Source: Spirosoma profusum
GTDB lineage: Bacteria > Bacteroidota > Bacteroidia > Cytophagales > Spirosomataceae
Assembly (NCBI RefSeq): GCF_014699005.1
Contig: NZ_JACWZY010000005.1
Location: 1 to 64,000, forward strand
Direction of reading: 5' to 3'
Length of the DNA: 64,000 nucleotides
The first letter of the stretch is position 1. Every line of letters begins with the position of its first letter. The notes under the pieces were generated by a model. That model worked only from the letters and a program-made list of their open reading frames with translations. It had not been told where the DNA came from and made no database searches. Shown in pieces: positions 2,878 to 62,339 of this stretch. Both the position numbers and the translations under genes were made by a program.

Positions 2878-4926
2878 ATGGCAAAACGCAAAACCACGAC
2901 TTCACCGTCTCCTACACCCGAAATCGAACAACCCGTAGTTACTACGTCCGTGAAACCGGCAACCCGTAAAAAAGCGCAACTAGTTTCCCCTGCGCCTGCT
3001 GAATCCGTGGTGCAGGATGGATCATATTCCCGCTTCACGGATTTCGACGTCCATTTGTTTCGGTCGGGAAAACACCACCGTCTTTACGAGAAATTTGGTT
3101 CACATACTGTTGAACACAATGGCGTTATCGGTACGTATTTCGCCGTTTGGGCTCCTTCAGCGCGTTACGTTGCCGTTATCGGTAATTTCAATGGCTGGGA
3201 TAAGGGCAGCCATTCGATGAGTGTCCGCTGGGATTCGTCGGGTATTTGGGAAGTTTTTATCCCGAATATTGGCCGGGGCGAAGTGTATAAATATTTCATC
3301 GTTCACGAAAGCGGTCGTGAACTGGAAAAGGGCGATCCTTATGCTCACTCCTGGGAAATTCCGCCCAAAACCGCTTCGGTCATCTGGGATACGTATTACG
3401 AATGGCAGGACCAGGAATGGATGACCAATCGGCATACTAAAAACGCGCTCAATGCGCCTGTTTCTGTCTATGAAGTGCATCTAGCATCCTGGCGACGCGA
3501 TCCCAGCGCTCCTGAACGGGAGCTGAGTTACGGCGAAATTGCTGATGCGCTGGTTCCTTACGTGCAGGATATGGGCTTTACACATGTCGAATTCATGCCG
3601 ATAATGCAGTATCCGTATGCGCCTTCCTGGGGCTATCAAATTACGGGTTACTACGCGCCTAGTAGCCGATTTGGTACACCACAGGATTTCATGACGCTTG
3701 TAGAACGGCTGCATCAGGCTGGTATCGGTGTTATTCTGGACTGGGTTCCGTCGCACTTTCCAGGCGATGCGCATGGCCTGTATGAGTTCGACGGGTCGCA
3801 TCTATACGAGCATCCTGATATGCGCAAAGGGTATCATCCCGACTGGAAAAGCTATGTTTTCAACTATACGCGCCCCGAGGTACGTTCGTTCCTGCTGAGT
3901 AATGCGCTGTTCTGGCTCGACCGTTGCCATGCCGACGGTCTGCGGGTCGATGCCGTAGCGTCCATGCTCTATCTCGATTATTCACGTAACGCTGGCGAGT
4001 GGGAACCCAACATGTTTGGTGGCCGCGAAAACCTGGAAACCATTTCATTATTCAAAGAACTGAACGAAGCCATATATAAAGAATTCCCTGATACGCAGAC
4101 GATTGCCGAGGAATCGACTGCCTTTCCAGGCGTATCACGACCGGTATATACAGGGGGACTGGGTTTTGGTATGAAATGGATGATGGGCTGGATGAATGAT
4201 ACGTTACGTTACTTCGAACGCGATCCGACTTTCCGCAAATATCACCAGGACGAGCTAACGTTCAGCACCATTTATGCCTTTACCGAAAACTTCATGCTAC
4301 CTCTTTCGCATGATGAAGTAGTGTATGGCAAGCATTCGCTGCTTTCTAAAATGCCCGGAGATGAATGGCAGCGATTTGCCAATCTACGACTGTTGTTCGC
4401 TTATATGTTTACCCACTCTGGCACCAAATTACTGTTTATGGGTGGTGAATTCGGCCAAACGTCGGAATGGAAATTCGACGCCAGCCTCGACTGGCATCTG
4501 CTGGAGTTTGCTCCGCATAAAGGTATGGCAGCCTGCGTGAAAGCCCTGAATACACTTTACAAGACCGAGCCAGCGCTATACGAACGTAATTTTACGTCCG
4601 ATGGCTTCGAGTGGGTCGACACCACAGACCGCGAAAACAGTATCGTTACGTATCTCCGTAAAGGAAATGACGCTACCGATACGTTACTGATTATCCTGAA
4701 TATGACGCCAGTTCCGCGTACTAATTACCGCATTGGTATTCCGGCCGCCGGTACGTATCGGGAAGTTTTCAACAGCGACGCTACGGAGTTTTACGGCAGC
4801 GGATTCATCAACGGGCAGCCATTGATGAGTGAAGATGAAACGTGGCATGGACGTCCGCAGTCGCTTCAAATCAACGTACCGCCATTGGGCGCCGTGATAC
4901 TAAAAATCGTCAGAACCGGGATTTAG
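2878..4926 (+). CDS. glgB: 1,4-alpha-glucan branching enzyme
   Basis: Introduces alpha-1,6 branches into linear alpha-1,4-glucan; GH13 family, cytoplasmic. The 682 residues comprise a Lys/Thr/Pro-rich extension of about 43 residues that looks disordered, a CBM48 domain (about 60-150), the GH13 barrel and a C-terminal beta domain. Catalytic residues are visible: nucleophile Asp358 in GLRVDAV, acid/base Glu411 in TIAEES, and Asp479 in LSHDEV. With the maltokinase 1 kb upstream it forms part of a maltose-1-phosphate route to branched glucan. The C-terminus is odd: the last few codons and the TAG stop lie inside a perfect 44-bp inverted repeat, so the native end of the gene has probably been replaced by an inserted repeat element. 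The catalytic core is intact. Confidence 0.95.
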   Translation: MAKRKTTTSPSPTPEIEQPVVTTSVKPATRKKAQLVSPAPAESVVQDGSYSRFTDFDVHLFRSGKHHRLYEKFGSHTVEHNGVIGTYFAVWAPSARYVAVIGNFNGWDKGSHSMSVRWDSSGIWEVFIPNIGRGEVYKYFIVHESGRELEKGDPYAHSWEIPPKTASVIWDTYYEWQDQEWMTNRHTKNALNAPVSVYEVHLASWRRDPSAPERELSYGEIADALVPYVQDMGFTHVEFMPIMQYPYAPSWGYQITGYYAPSSRFGTPQDFMTLVERLHQAGIGVILDWVPSHFPGDAHGLYEFDGSHLYEHPDMRKGYHPDWKSYVFNYTRPEVRSFLLSNALFWLDRCHADGLRVDAVASMLYLDYSRNAGEWEPNMFGGRENLETISLFKELNEAIYKEFPDTQTIAEESTAFPGVSRPVYTGGLGFGMKWMMGWMNDTLRYFERDPTFRKYHQDELTFSTIYAFTENFMLPLSHDEVVYGKHSLLSKMPGDEWQRFANLRLLFAYMFTHSGTKLLFMGGEFGQTSEWKFDASLDWHLLEFAPHKGMAACVKALNTLYKTEPALYERNFTSDGFEWVDTTDRENSIVTYLRKGNDATDTLLIILNMTPVPRTNYRIGIPAAGTYREVFNSDATEFYGSGFINGQPLMSEDETWHGRPQSLQINVPPLGAVILKIVRTGI

Positions 4927-5028
4927 CAGATGTAGGGATTTTCAGGATTTTGCTTTCGTTTCTTCGAAGCGCTCAATCAATTAACAAAATCCTGAAAATC
5001 CCTACATCTGCTAAATCCCGGTTCTGAC
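4909..5028. repeat. Perfect 44-bp inverted repeat with 32-nt spacer (palindromic element)
   Basis: Arms 4909-4952 and 4985-5028 are exact reverse complements. The left arm carries the last codons and stop of glgB. The right arm ends 2 bp before a TATCTTTG promoter box. The arms are built of short words around AAATCCTG and AAATCCC, and the spacer holds an 8-nt palindrome (CTTCGAAG). It resembles dispersed REP/MITE-like palindromes of Bacteroidetes; that identity is inferred. As RNA it would form a very stable hairpin and could protect the glgB 3' end or terminate transcription, although no T-run follows. Confidence 0.85.
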
Positions 5029-5030
5029 AC

Positions 5031-5038
5031 TATCTTTG
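5031..5038 (+). promoter_or_regulatory. Bacteroidetes-type -7 box (TATCTTTG) for the downstream membrane protein gene
   Basis: TATCTTTG matches the TAnnTTTG consensus of Bacteroidetes housekeeping promoters and lies 26 bp before the ATG at 5064. No good TTTG -33 element is seen; the -33 region falls inside the right arm of the inverted repeat. Confidence 0.5.
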
Positions 5039-5063
5039 CGCGCACGCAAGCTGAATTGATTGC

Positions 5064-5837
5064 ATGAAGAAAATACTTGTTGCGTTATTAACGTTCGTTT
5101 CTCTTAGCAGTTTCGCACAATCGCCGGTAGCGGCCCGTCTGAGTAGCGGTTACGATGTAGGAATGGCCTACACCCCTCAGCATTACAACCCTTCAATTAC
5201 GTATTATCAGCTTCTGAATACCGGAAATCGCCGACTCTTTGCCCTCGGCTGGACCCTCCGGGCCGGTGCTTTTTACGGCGATAACCTTAATTATTATACA
5301 GCCCCAGCCCGCCTGACGCGCGGCAAAACAGGCTTTGGCGCCTTAGGAGCCCCTTTAATCGATAAAAACATCGATACCATGCGCTACGATTACGTATCGA
5401 TGACATCGATCAGTGCCGGGATTAGGGCGCAGCTTAATCTAGGTATTGTTGAAATTGGGGCCAGTGCCGATTTGATAGGTTTAACGCTGGGCAAGTCACG
5501 TATCGGTCGCTATAAATCATCGACGGGTCAGTATACAGTAAAAAATGCGACTGGAGGTGATTCGCTTACATTGTATTTTCAGGGAGTCAATACGTTTCAG
5601 AAAACATCACCCAGTACATTCAACGTACGTTTGCTGGGCGATAATGATATTGGCACCCTCGCTACCGAAGTCTACGCTCGCGTGTACATAACCCAACGTT
5701 TCGCCGTTAAAGCGGGTTATCAATGGCTAACCACCGAAACCTCAGCCGCTAACCGCGACGTAGTAGCCGACAACAATCGCTTCCGCCACCGGGTTGGGAT
5801 GGGGTATTTGGCACTTACATTTCCGGTTTTCTTCTGA
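5064..5837 (+). CDS. Secreted/outer-membrane beta-barrel-like hypothetical protein
   Basis: A 257-residue protein with a clear Sec signal peptide ending around SSFAQS (residue 19-20). The rest is rich in alternating hydrophobic and polar stretches with aromatic ends, and it finishes in LTFPVFF, as outer-membrane beta-barrel proteins of this phylum often do. I do not recognise a family. It is transcribed alone, from the box at 5031, and convergent with the alpha-E gene. An outer-membrane location is inferred from the leader and the terminal Phe. Confidence 0.65.
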   Translation: MKKILVALLTFVSLSSFAQSPVAARLSSGYDVGMAYTPQHYNPSITYYQLLNTGNRRLFALGWTLRAGAFYGDNLNYYTAPARLTRGKTGFGALGAPLIDKNIDTMRYDYVSMTSISAGIRAQLNLGIVEIGASADLIGLTLGKSRIGRYKSSTGQYTVKNATGGDSLTLYFQGVNTFQKTSPSTFNVRLLGDNDIGTLATEVYARVYITQRFAVKAGYQWLTTETSAANRDVVADNNRFRHRVGMGYLALTFPVFF

Positions 5838-45195: not shown

Positions 45196-45531
45196 ATGAG
45201 TAAGAAAAACCGCTCCGGCATCATTTATTCAACCAACCCGGATTTTGACTATCAGTCCGACGAACAACCCGAAACTGATACGTTGCCGCCAGCCCAGCAG
45301 AATCTCAAAATCTGGCTGGTGAAATTAGGCGGCAATAAAGTCGTGACATCGATACGTGGGTTTATTGGCGCCAGCGCCGATTTAGCAGACTTGGGCAAAC
45401 AATTAAAAACCGCCTGTGGGTCAGGCGGTTCAGTGAAAGATGACGAGATTCTAATTCAGGGCGACCACCGCGATAAAGTACTGACGTGGCTCACCGGAAA
45501 AGGTTATAAAGCGAAGAAAGCAGGAGGATGA
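45196..45531 (+). CDS. SUI1/YciH-type translation initiation factor-like protein
   Basis: A 111-residue protein with the eIF1/SUI1-like fold in its second half: IRGFIGASADLADLGKQLKTACGSGGSVKDDEILIQGDHRDKV, the core of the YciH family. YciH of E. coli represses translation initiation from non-canonical sites. I start at ATG 45196; an upstream ATG at 45142 lies inside the previous gene. The gene follows the small membrane protein closely, and its stop begins a 28-bp imperfect inverted repeat region. Confidence 0.87.
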   Translation: MSKKNRSGIIYSTNPDFDYQSDEQPETDTLPPAQQNLKIWLVKLGGNKVVTSIRGFIGASADLADLGKQLKTACGSGGSVKDDEILIQGDHRDKVLTWLTGKGYKAKKAGG

Positions 45532-45535
45532 GTGT

Positions 45536-45608
45536 GATGTATGAAGTAATATTTATGATATATTCTTGAGCAACTACATCATATCTCATACATCATACTT
45601 CATATATC
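45536..45608. repeat. Imperfect 28-bp inverted repeat between convergent genes
   Basis: Arms 45536-45563 and 45581-45608 pair at 23 of 28 positions by eye, with a 17-nt spacer. They consist of ATGTATGAAGTA-like words and their complements. It lies exactly between two convergent genes and may act as a bidirectional terminator or be a dispersed repeat. Confidence 0.55.
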
Positions 45609-61119: not shown

Positions 61120-62271
61120 ATGGCCAAACTGATTATCGTAGATGATGAGTGGAAAATCCGGGCAGCCCTACGCGATATCCTGGAGTATGAAGGCTACGAG
61201 GTCGATGAAGCAAAAGATGGTGAAGAGGGGCTGGAGATGATCTTGCGCAATAACTACGACGTAGCGTTGTGCGACGTTAGAATGCCCAAACTGACTGGCA
61301 TGGAAGTTCTTCTGAAAGTCACCGAAGCCAGTAAAGCCACTCAACTCATCATGATTTCGGCACACGGCACTGTCGAAACTGCCGTTGAAGCCACGAAGCA
61401 GGGAGCTTATGATTTCATCATGAAACCTCCTGATCTGAACCGCCTGTTGATAACAGTACGCAACGCCATCGAGCGGGCCAAGCTGTTGCAGGAAACAAAG
61501 ACCCTCAAGAAACGTATCTACAAACTGAACGAAATTGTCGGCGAATCGGAGCCGATTAAGAAAGTCAAAGATACGATCAACCGGGTGGCCGCTACCGAAG
61601 CCAGAGTGCTGGTTACAGGAGCCAACGGGTCGGGGAAAGAGATGGTAGCCAAGCAGATTCACGAAAAAGGAAGCCGGGCCAACCAACCTCTAATCGAAGT
61701 TAACTGCGCTGCCATACCCAGCGAACTCATTGAGAGCGAATTGTTTGGCCACGAAAAAGGGGCCTTCACCGGAGCCGCAATCCGGCGGGTTGGCAAGTTT
61801 GAACAGGCCGATGGTGGTACGTTATTTCTCGACGAGATCGGCGACATGAGTCTGTCGGCTCAGGCTAAAGTGCTACGTGCGTTGCAGGAAAACAAAATTA
61901 CCCGCGTAGGTGGCGATAAAGAAATCAAGGTAAACGTTCGGGTCATTGCGGCCACGAACAAAGACCTTCGGCAGGAAATTGTAAATGGCAATTTCCGGGA
62001 GGATTTATTTCACCGGCTCAGTGTAATTATGATTCACGTACCGCCCCTGGCCGAACGACGTGTCGATATTCCGCTGCTGGCTGACAAATTCCTTCACGAC
62101 ATTGCCACCGAATACGGCGCTCCCCCAAAGGAACTCTCAAACGATGCAATTGCCTACCTGCAATCGCTCCCCTGGACCGGTAACGTACGCGAACTACGTA
62201 ACGTCATCGAGCGTCTGGTCATCATGTGTGGCGAAGAGATATCGCTGGAAGACGTGAAAGCGTACGCGTAA
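61120..62271 (+). CDS. Sigma-54-dependent response regulator without DNA-binding domain
   Basis: A 383-residue protein. Receiver domain (about 1-120) with phosphoacceptor Asp52 in CDVRMPK; AAA+ domain (about 140-370) with the Walker A-like GANGSGKE, the sigma-54-contact loop GAFTGA (214-219) and the [15 protein letters not shown] motif. It ends just after the AAA+ domain; the Fis-type helix-turn-helix usual in NtrC (~440-480 residues) is absent. Such HTH-less forms act from solution on sigma-54 promoters in some Cytophagales and other phyla. No histidine kinase is adjacent. It lies 218 bp after the beta-galactosidase gene. Confidence 0.9.
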
Positions 62272-62339
62272 TACAATTTTGAAAGAGCGAAAGAGCGAAT
62301 TTCCAGCAAGTGCGCTCTTTCACTCTTTCACAATTGTAT
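62271..62339. terminator. 27-bp imperfect inverted repeat between convergent genes
   Basis: Arms 62271-62297 and 62313-62339 pair at 25 of 27 positions. The left arm includes a GAAAGAGCGAAAGAGCG tandem word and the last base of the regulator's stop codon; the right arm overlaps the 3' end of the convergent LuxE-like gene. It is a probable bidirectional terminator or mobile-repeat relic. Confidence 0.65.

Follow-up and report, generated by a model that had tools for sequence, protein, structure and literature searches.

Several bacterial systems in which a palindrome lies at the end of a gene have been described. The termini of GTAG REPs are reported to give often a TAG stop codon to the flanking open reading frames, and the supply of stop codons by palindromic repeats is already known in this respect (PMC3733652). 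The REPs of E. coli located within 15 nt of a stop codon reduce translation, according to earlier work cited in PMC12306157. Stem-loops are known to favour 3' ends in bacteria at large (PMC1590033), and template switching has been described as the process that makes and keeps stems, with multi-base compensatory changes as a result (PMC8794818). The palindrome studied here lies at the end of glgB and belongs to a family that we call F1. In the open-licence literature searched, no paper on such a repeat was found; what seems to be new is the combination of long, mirrored arms with the ending of genes on either side, in a family whose sites are occupied by other hairpins in many relatives.

The palindrome at the end of glgB

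The gene glgB was identified as that of the 1,4-alpha-glucan branching enzyme from its naming in an earlier note and from its relatives, and its nearest named counterpart is GlgB of Arsenicibacter rosenii (75%). It lies in the window, i.e., the whole stretch of 64,000 nucleotides of Spirosoma profusum DNA that was analysed, with the following features around its end:

2878..4926, + strand: glgB, 682 aa; stop codon TAG at 4924-4926, within the left arm
4909..4952, + strand: F1 left arm; glgB ends in the first 18 nt of it (last five codons plus TAG)
4953..4984, + strand: loop of 32 nt, holding an inner 6-bp hairpin (4957-4962 with 4966-4971); the orientation of the element is set by the loop
4985..5028, + strand: F1 right arm, reverse-complementary to the left arm at every position
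5031..5038, + strand: TATCTTTG box, starting 2 nt past the right arm
5064..5837, + strand: next gene after the palindrome, 257 aa; its start resembles a signal peptide (by eye)

The earlier note had claimed a perfect 44-bp inverted repeat at this place, and the repeat is indeed exact, since all 44/44 pairs are formed between 4909-4952 and 4985-5028 (100% complementary) around the 32-nt loop. With its 44-nt arms it is the longest among the nine inverted repeats detected in the window at arm distances up to 300. The last codons of glgB and its TAG fall within the left arm, just as had been claimed; the 3' end of the gene reads GTC AGA ACC GGG ATT TAG (VRTGI*), and the arm encodes all six codons. 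It was also correctly noted that the right arm, which ends at 5028, stops 2 bp ahead of TATCTTTG at 5031-5038. We take this box, by its consensus, to be the Bacteroidota-type -7 element of a putative promoter of the next gene; given this spacing, the arm would contain the upstream part of that promoter (the -33 region).

The predicted RNA fold of positions 4900-5040 has an energy of -83.9 kcal/mol, while 200 dinucleotide shuffles gave a mean of -24.9 (z = -17.9) and none of them was as low (0/200). Thus glgB has the stable hairpin that is looked for after the stop codon in an intrinsic terminator, with the stop sitting inside the stem here. A U-run after the glgB-strand stem is absent and ACTATCTTTGCG comes next; a scan of 4700-5300 for intrinsic terminators, which permits loops of 3-8 nt only, found none. 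When the window was compared with 4227 Rfam families, no match scored above the gathering score.

A dispersed family beside gene 3' ends

It is nearly certain that the glgB-end palindrome is a member of a dispersed family. F1 has the architecture TCTGAACCGGGATTTAGCAGATTTAGGGATTTTCAGGATTTTG, loop, reverse complement, and the consensus of 28 aligned copies is of approx. 120 nt with the ends TCTGAACC..GGTTCAGA. Using the 120 bases as a BLAST query against the own genome (8.73 Mb in 81 contigs), 40 full-length places and five short flanking pieces were found, and a covariance model made from the 28 copies gave 116 strand-matches that represent at least 59 distinct places, a lower bound because 150 of 5829 candidates were scored. 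The lack of any other copy of the arm, which the earlier note had set against its own idea of an inserted element, is therefore not what the genome shows. The core CTGAACCRGGATTT occurs 62 + 79 times with at most one mismatch, versus 2 + 3 times for the reversed control. Outside the 59 places, four more diverged palindromes were seen, and the 22 arm matches there in the loci read were checked for hairpins and neighbouring genes; no gene was noticed between two arms. Matches to F1 by DNA similarity are present in 16 of 59 genomes including the own one, i.e., in 14 of the 35 other genomes of the genus and in one from another family. A search of the 194 genomes of the order with the model (E <= 1e-8 and stricter filters) gave a match in 18, from 12 of 93 genera; the weaker model matches may be unrelated palindromes.

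The best sign of recent copying is a pair of F1 copies located 1.9 kb apart, in which the element is identical and the flanks are not. Over the family, no clear excess of target-site duplications was found when six boundary offsets were compared with shuffled pairs of flanks; the junctions may be eroded. Y1-transposase matches were detected at four places, and the F1 arm core AACCnGGATT is absent from the flanks read of these genes (up to 1.5 kb, less at contig ends); no RAYT partner for F1 was seen there. The plasmid and phage collections held no F1 copy, and thus point to no vehicle for the family. Because neither target-site duplication, nor an arm flanking a Y1 gene, nor a plasmid or phage copy was found, the movement of F1 rests on the copy number and on the identical pair. 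From these two lines, movement by insertion is likely, with no enzyme or clean empty site found and with F1-like elements long resident at some sites. Of the 118 F1 flanks of the own genome, 14 have a further arm of like orientation and one has a further arm of opposite orientation, with scores above every shuffled flank; the weakest of these matches may be due to chance. Insertion of new palindromes at the apex of old ones would be expected to leave further arms of like orientation. Signatures of group II introns were also seen in the own genome (contig C11, approx. 205-207 kb; L216, 5093-6926).

With genes called by a home-made dicodon script instead of a published caller, the 59 places are distributed in 42 tandem, 15 convergent and 2 divergent gaps, none is within a gene body, and 57 are beside a gene 3' end. 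The F1 copies of three relatives (G034, G020 and G013) look similar in placement, with 12/16 tandem and 4/16 convergent. In total, 72 gene 3' ends face an F1 element; the stop codon is wholly inside the element in 32 cases and shares its first base with it in 11 more (43/72), and 60/72 stops are inside or no more than 10 nt ahead of it. For 12 of the 15 convergent pairs both stops are inside or within 5 nt of the element, so that the gap there is almost entirely palindrome. A separate count gave 12/15 stop codons overlapping and the other three adjacent. The orientation of the loop agrees with that of the tandem genes in 20 cases and is opposite in 22; F1 therefore has no preferred strand, and a strand-specific RNA element was discarded. 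Ten neighbouring genes that were named, or for which a name was tried, are of many kinds and show no sign of a regulon.

All the genes that read into F1 by at least 3 nt stop within 22 nt (32/32). In frame one the stop is the TGA at arm positions 4-6, or the TAG at 16-18 where that TGA has been lost, as is the case of glgB. Unless an earlier stop occurs in the first 7 nt, frame two needs a T-to-G change that gives TGA at 15-17, and frame three an A-to-T change that gives TGA at 20-22. The TGA 15-17 allele is present in five of the six arms entered in the matching frame versus five of 112 others (p = 8e-6). The sixth arm uses an earlier TAG instead, and three of the five alleles found in arms that do not need them are in the mirror arm of one that does. 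The TGA 20-22 allele, which is common anyway, showed no link with the frame (4/8 versus 27/110, p = 0.20).

The abundance of other hairpins was evaluated in a 464-kb sample of the own genome, made up of the window plus three blocks picked arbitrarily. It holds 82 hairpins of at least 14 pairs versus 2 in a first-order Markov replica (a single replicate); long hairpins are thus far above chance, and the glgB site is not unique. By location, 48 are tandem, 25 convergent, one divergent and eight in called genes, which by density means 25 in 54 convergent gaps (6.5 kb in total) versus one in 53 divergent gaps (12.8 kb). By family, 20 belong to F2 (GTCATnCTGA..GAAGnATCTT), 10 to F3 (CTTCGACAGGCTCAG/TTGCTGACGC), 14 have periodic arms with units of 7-9 nt, one is F1 and 37 are others. 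F2 and F3 are located mostly 11-100 nt past the stop (29/39 ends) rather than overlapping it; stop overlap is 43/72 for F1 versus 1/39 for F2 and F3 together (Fisher p = 5e-10), the borders being taken from the model for F1 and from the palindrome for F2 and F3.

The units of the periodic-arm hairpins are of the type GAGTGAAA or GTTATAGG, with a best period of 8 nt in 10 of the 14; units of 7 or 8 nt that contain TGA or TAG would present a stop in each of the three frames. In the window, a hairpin with GAAAGAGC-type repeat arms lies between convergent genes at 62271-62339; the stop of one gene, at 62271, shares the first base of the hairpin, and that of the other, at 62328, is inside the right arm. 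Here a different sequence family has the gene-end habit of F1. Another inverted repeat of the window, at 45531-45608, has ATGTATGAAGTAATATTT-like arms that are 76-82% complementary. Two general rules were also rejected for these hairpins. Purine-rich 5' arms, which would weaken the RNA-DNA hybrid, are seen in the periodic-arm family (mean purine fraction 0.70, n = 14), are weakly so in the others (0.55, n = 37, p = 0.04) and are absent in F2 (0.50, n = 20) and F3 (0.50, n = 10); and T-tails do not rise with stem length.

The same gene ends in related genomes

The ends of four genes were compared among orthologues: glgB, SplB (spore-photoproduct-lyase family), SucB (dihydrolipoyl-acyltransferase-like) and ACAD (acyl-CoA-dehydrogenase-like). 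For each of them 30 loci of the genus, own included, were taken from 33, 32, 36 and 34 matching genomes, respectively, and one SucB locus without a readable stop was dropped. Hairpins of at least 11 pairs are present in 24/30 (glgB), 22/30 (SplB), 17/29 (SucB) and 29/30 (ACAD) of these ends, i.e., in 92/119 with the four own sites included, versus 0/119 coding stretches of equal length and 3/595 Markov shuffles. When grouped by arm similarity, the 24 glgB hairpins form 14 clusters, those of SplB 14, the 17 of SucB five and the 29 of ACAD 20, and the cluster that contains the own F1 copy has 6, 7, 12 and 3 members, respectively. Therefore, the hairpin is widely kept and its sequence often is not. 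In G008, the genome closest at SplB (93%), each of the four ends bears another hairpin, with a weak likeness to F1 at SucB only.

A diverged F1-like arm that scores above every shuffled control is present at 5/29 glgB, 8/29 SplB, 17/28 SucB and 8/29 ACAD ends of the relatives. This total of 38/115 sites rules out that the hairpins of the relatives are all unrelated to F1, and it implies that certain copies may have long been in place instead of being newcomers. In G004, G010, G020, G027 and G034, the SucB C-terminus KPGF(S/M/N)* is encoded by an F1-like arm, and the own SucB end can be read as the remnant of an older copy, followed by a new copy and then by the right arm of the older one.

At glgB, the own protein ends in ..LKIVRTGI* versus ..LKIVK*, ..LKALK* or ..LKIG* in relatives, i.e., the arm writes the end of GlgB. 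The earlier note had reasoned that the same palindrome at this place in all relatives would make it a conserved terminator; this is not the case, since 24/29 glgB ends of the genus have no F1-like arm above the shuffled controls and 5/29 have a diverged one (G022, G018, G001, G016 and G031). Given these five, the glgB copy may derive from an older element that was already there; in G016 the F1-like arm AACCAGGATTAG encodes the last glgB codons and the TAG in another frame. The proposal of a palindrome inserted at the end of glgB thus holds in that the arm writes the C-terminus, whereas a fresh insertion is no more than a possibility, as no target-site duplication was found over the family and five relatives have diverged arms. 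Likewise, the strong RNA hairpin attributed to the element is borne out by the predicted fold, but the element did not introduce it at an end that lacked one, since 26/29 relatives have a hairpin of at least 10 pairs there (23/29 with at least 11), some of them T-tailed terminators. By eye, a T-run follows a short stem at the glgB end of 7/29 relatives (G020, G027, G004, G035, G025, G026 and G023). As a whole, the interpretation of the earlier note is partly supported.

F1 could be a purely selfish palindromic repeat, for which gene ends are the least harmful insertion sites and whose hairpin has no useful role. The REP-like copy number (at least 59 places), the T-run missing after the glgB-strand stem and the nested copies (a further arm of like orientation in 14 flanks versus one of opposite orientation in a single flank) fit this explanation, which we nevertheless regard as unlikely: divergent gaps are also non-coding (12.8 of the 55.9 kb of gaps in the sample) yet hold 2/59 copies, and a selfish repeat alone does not predict that most relatives have hairpins at these ends regardless of the hairpin sequence (92/119, own included). 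The placement of F1 and the T-tailed terminators found in its place make it quite probable that F1 works as a gene-end module, made of a stop codon and a 3' hairpin. A wider scenario, which we put forward only tentatively, is that gene ends of the genus are held by palindromes in continuous turnover: new ones would land in or near the apex of old hairpins, old arms would later be shed and arms would be rewritten from each other, so that the hairpin would persist while sequence, stop codon and C-terminus would be replaced repeatedly.

Mirrored arms and comparison with known systems

Among the 28 aligned copies, 57 double changes were counted versus 23.5 in shuffles, with 0/500 shuffles as high, and slid structures used as a control gave 4 to 13. 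The ungapped arm statistics include 49 of the 59 copies, ten being dropped; in these, 111 arm deviations are mirrored versus 38 expected from column make-up, about threefold. Transversions, which cannot pass through G-U pairs, account for 80 of the 111. The 187 unmirrored positions (26 G-U, 38 A-C and 123 other) bear no mark of G-U tolerance. The arms of F1 can also carry a mini-hairpin insert of approx. 15 nt, known in two versions. The own copy C11:358193 has the first version in both arms, and the own copy C4:116563 has it in a single arm; the second is in both arms of a 58/58-pair hairpin at the ACAD end of G029 (L304) and, slightly changed, in a single arm of the own copy C45:14041. An indel of this size would be hard to mirror through point mutation. 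Palindromes corrected through template switching are recognised by changes of several bases, or indels, that appear in either arm alike, and F1 has such changes. Since one arm is constrained by the frame, as it must give the stop, and the other is free, the mirrored stop allele is a natural experiment. On the other side, arm identity is only moderately higher within a copy (0.898) than between copies (0.834), the own mate is a nearest arm for 49/118 arms and not for 69/118, and together with the 187 unmirrored positions this suggests that the mirrored changes could be subfamilies inherited whole.

Covariation above the shuffles and placement at 3' ends would also be produced by an ordinary terminator under RNA-level selection, in which selection acts against mismatches and second mutations restore the pairing, and the diverged F1-like arms in relatives could be the same element drifting. 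We consider this less probable than the selfish repeat: the sequence of the sites is mostly not conserved (14 clusters among 24 hairpins at glgB and 20 among 29 at ACAD, but 5 among 17 at SucB), the mirrored changes are mostly transversions without G-U excess, the insert of approx. 15 nt is mirrored, and stems reach 58/58 pairs. A stem of 58 pairs exceeds the known need of an intrinsic terminator. Least probable of all is a REP-type translation brake, in which a hairpin at the stop codon would stall the ribosome and lower the output of GlgB by analogy with the E. coli REPs that lower translation from 15 nt or less (earlier work cited in PMC12306157); 60/72 stops inside F1 or within 10 nt ahead of it would suit such a brake, but the ten neighbouring genes are diverse and do not look like a regulon.

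Thus we favour, as the probable reading, that F1 is a REP/MITE-like palindrome serving as a gene-end module (stop plus 3' hairpin), with arms that stay alike via arm-to-arm DNA copying; its function and movement are judged from sequence. A gene that runs into an F1 arm would meet a stop codon there, and the transcript would then fold into a very stable hairpin that may end or protect the 3' end of the message, by ending transcription or by blocking 3' exonucleases. Between convergent genes, the hairpin would serve both directions. Copying at the DNA level from one arm to the other, by template switching or gene conversion, is a good candidate for what keeps them alike, to judge from the mirrored changes. 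At glgB, the arm would supply the last residues of the protein, and the copy would be either a recent arrival or the descendant of an older F1-like element. Through such a module, repeats would have a simple way to change the C-termini of proteins and the signals at gene ends; caution is also called for, since the glgB end in this genome is repeat DNA. Hairpins that keep their position and often change their sequence would allow a test of whether RNA stems persist by selection or by arm-to-arm DNA copying.

Compared with known systems, F1 resembles REPs and REPINs in being a dispersed intergenic palindrome with many copies near 3' ends that supplies stop codons; it differs in its size (approx. 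120 nt with 44-nt arms versus 20-40 bp for REPs), in a consensus without the GTAG or CGTC tag, in the absence of F1 arms from the flanks read of Y1 genes, and in that both of its ends supply stops. Like MITEs, it is short, non-coding and multicopy, with long terminal inverted repeats (the 44-nt arms), but a target-site duplication was not detected and a transposase with the same ends was not noticed in the loci read. With bidirectional intrinsic terminators F1 shares a strong hairpin just past the stop that fills convergent gaps, and T-tailed terminators occupy its place at glgB in some relatives; in contrast, the F1 stem is very long, has no T-run on the glgB strand and belongs to a dispersed repeat. 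Finally, in the template-switching account (PMC8794818), hairpins subject to quasipalindrome correction have, as F1 appears to have, arms made identical by copying and multi-base compensatory changes; F1 is distinguished from them as a dispersed repeat of gene ends, in which a coding constraint on one arm, the stop codon, is visible on the other.
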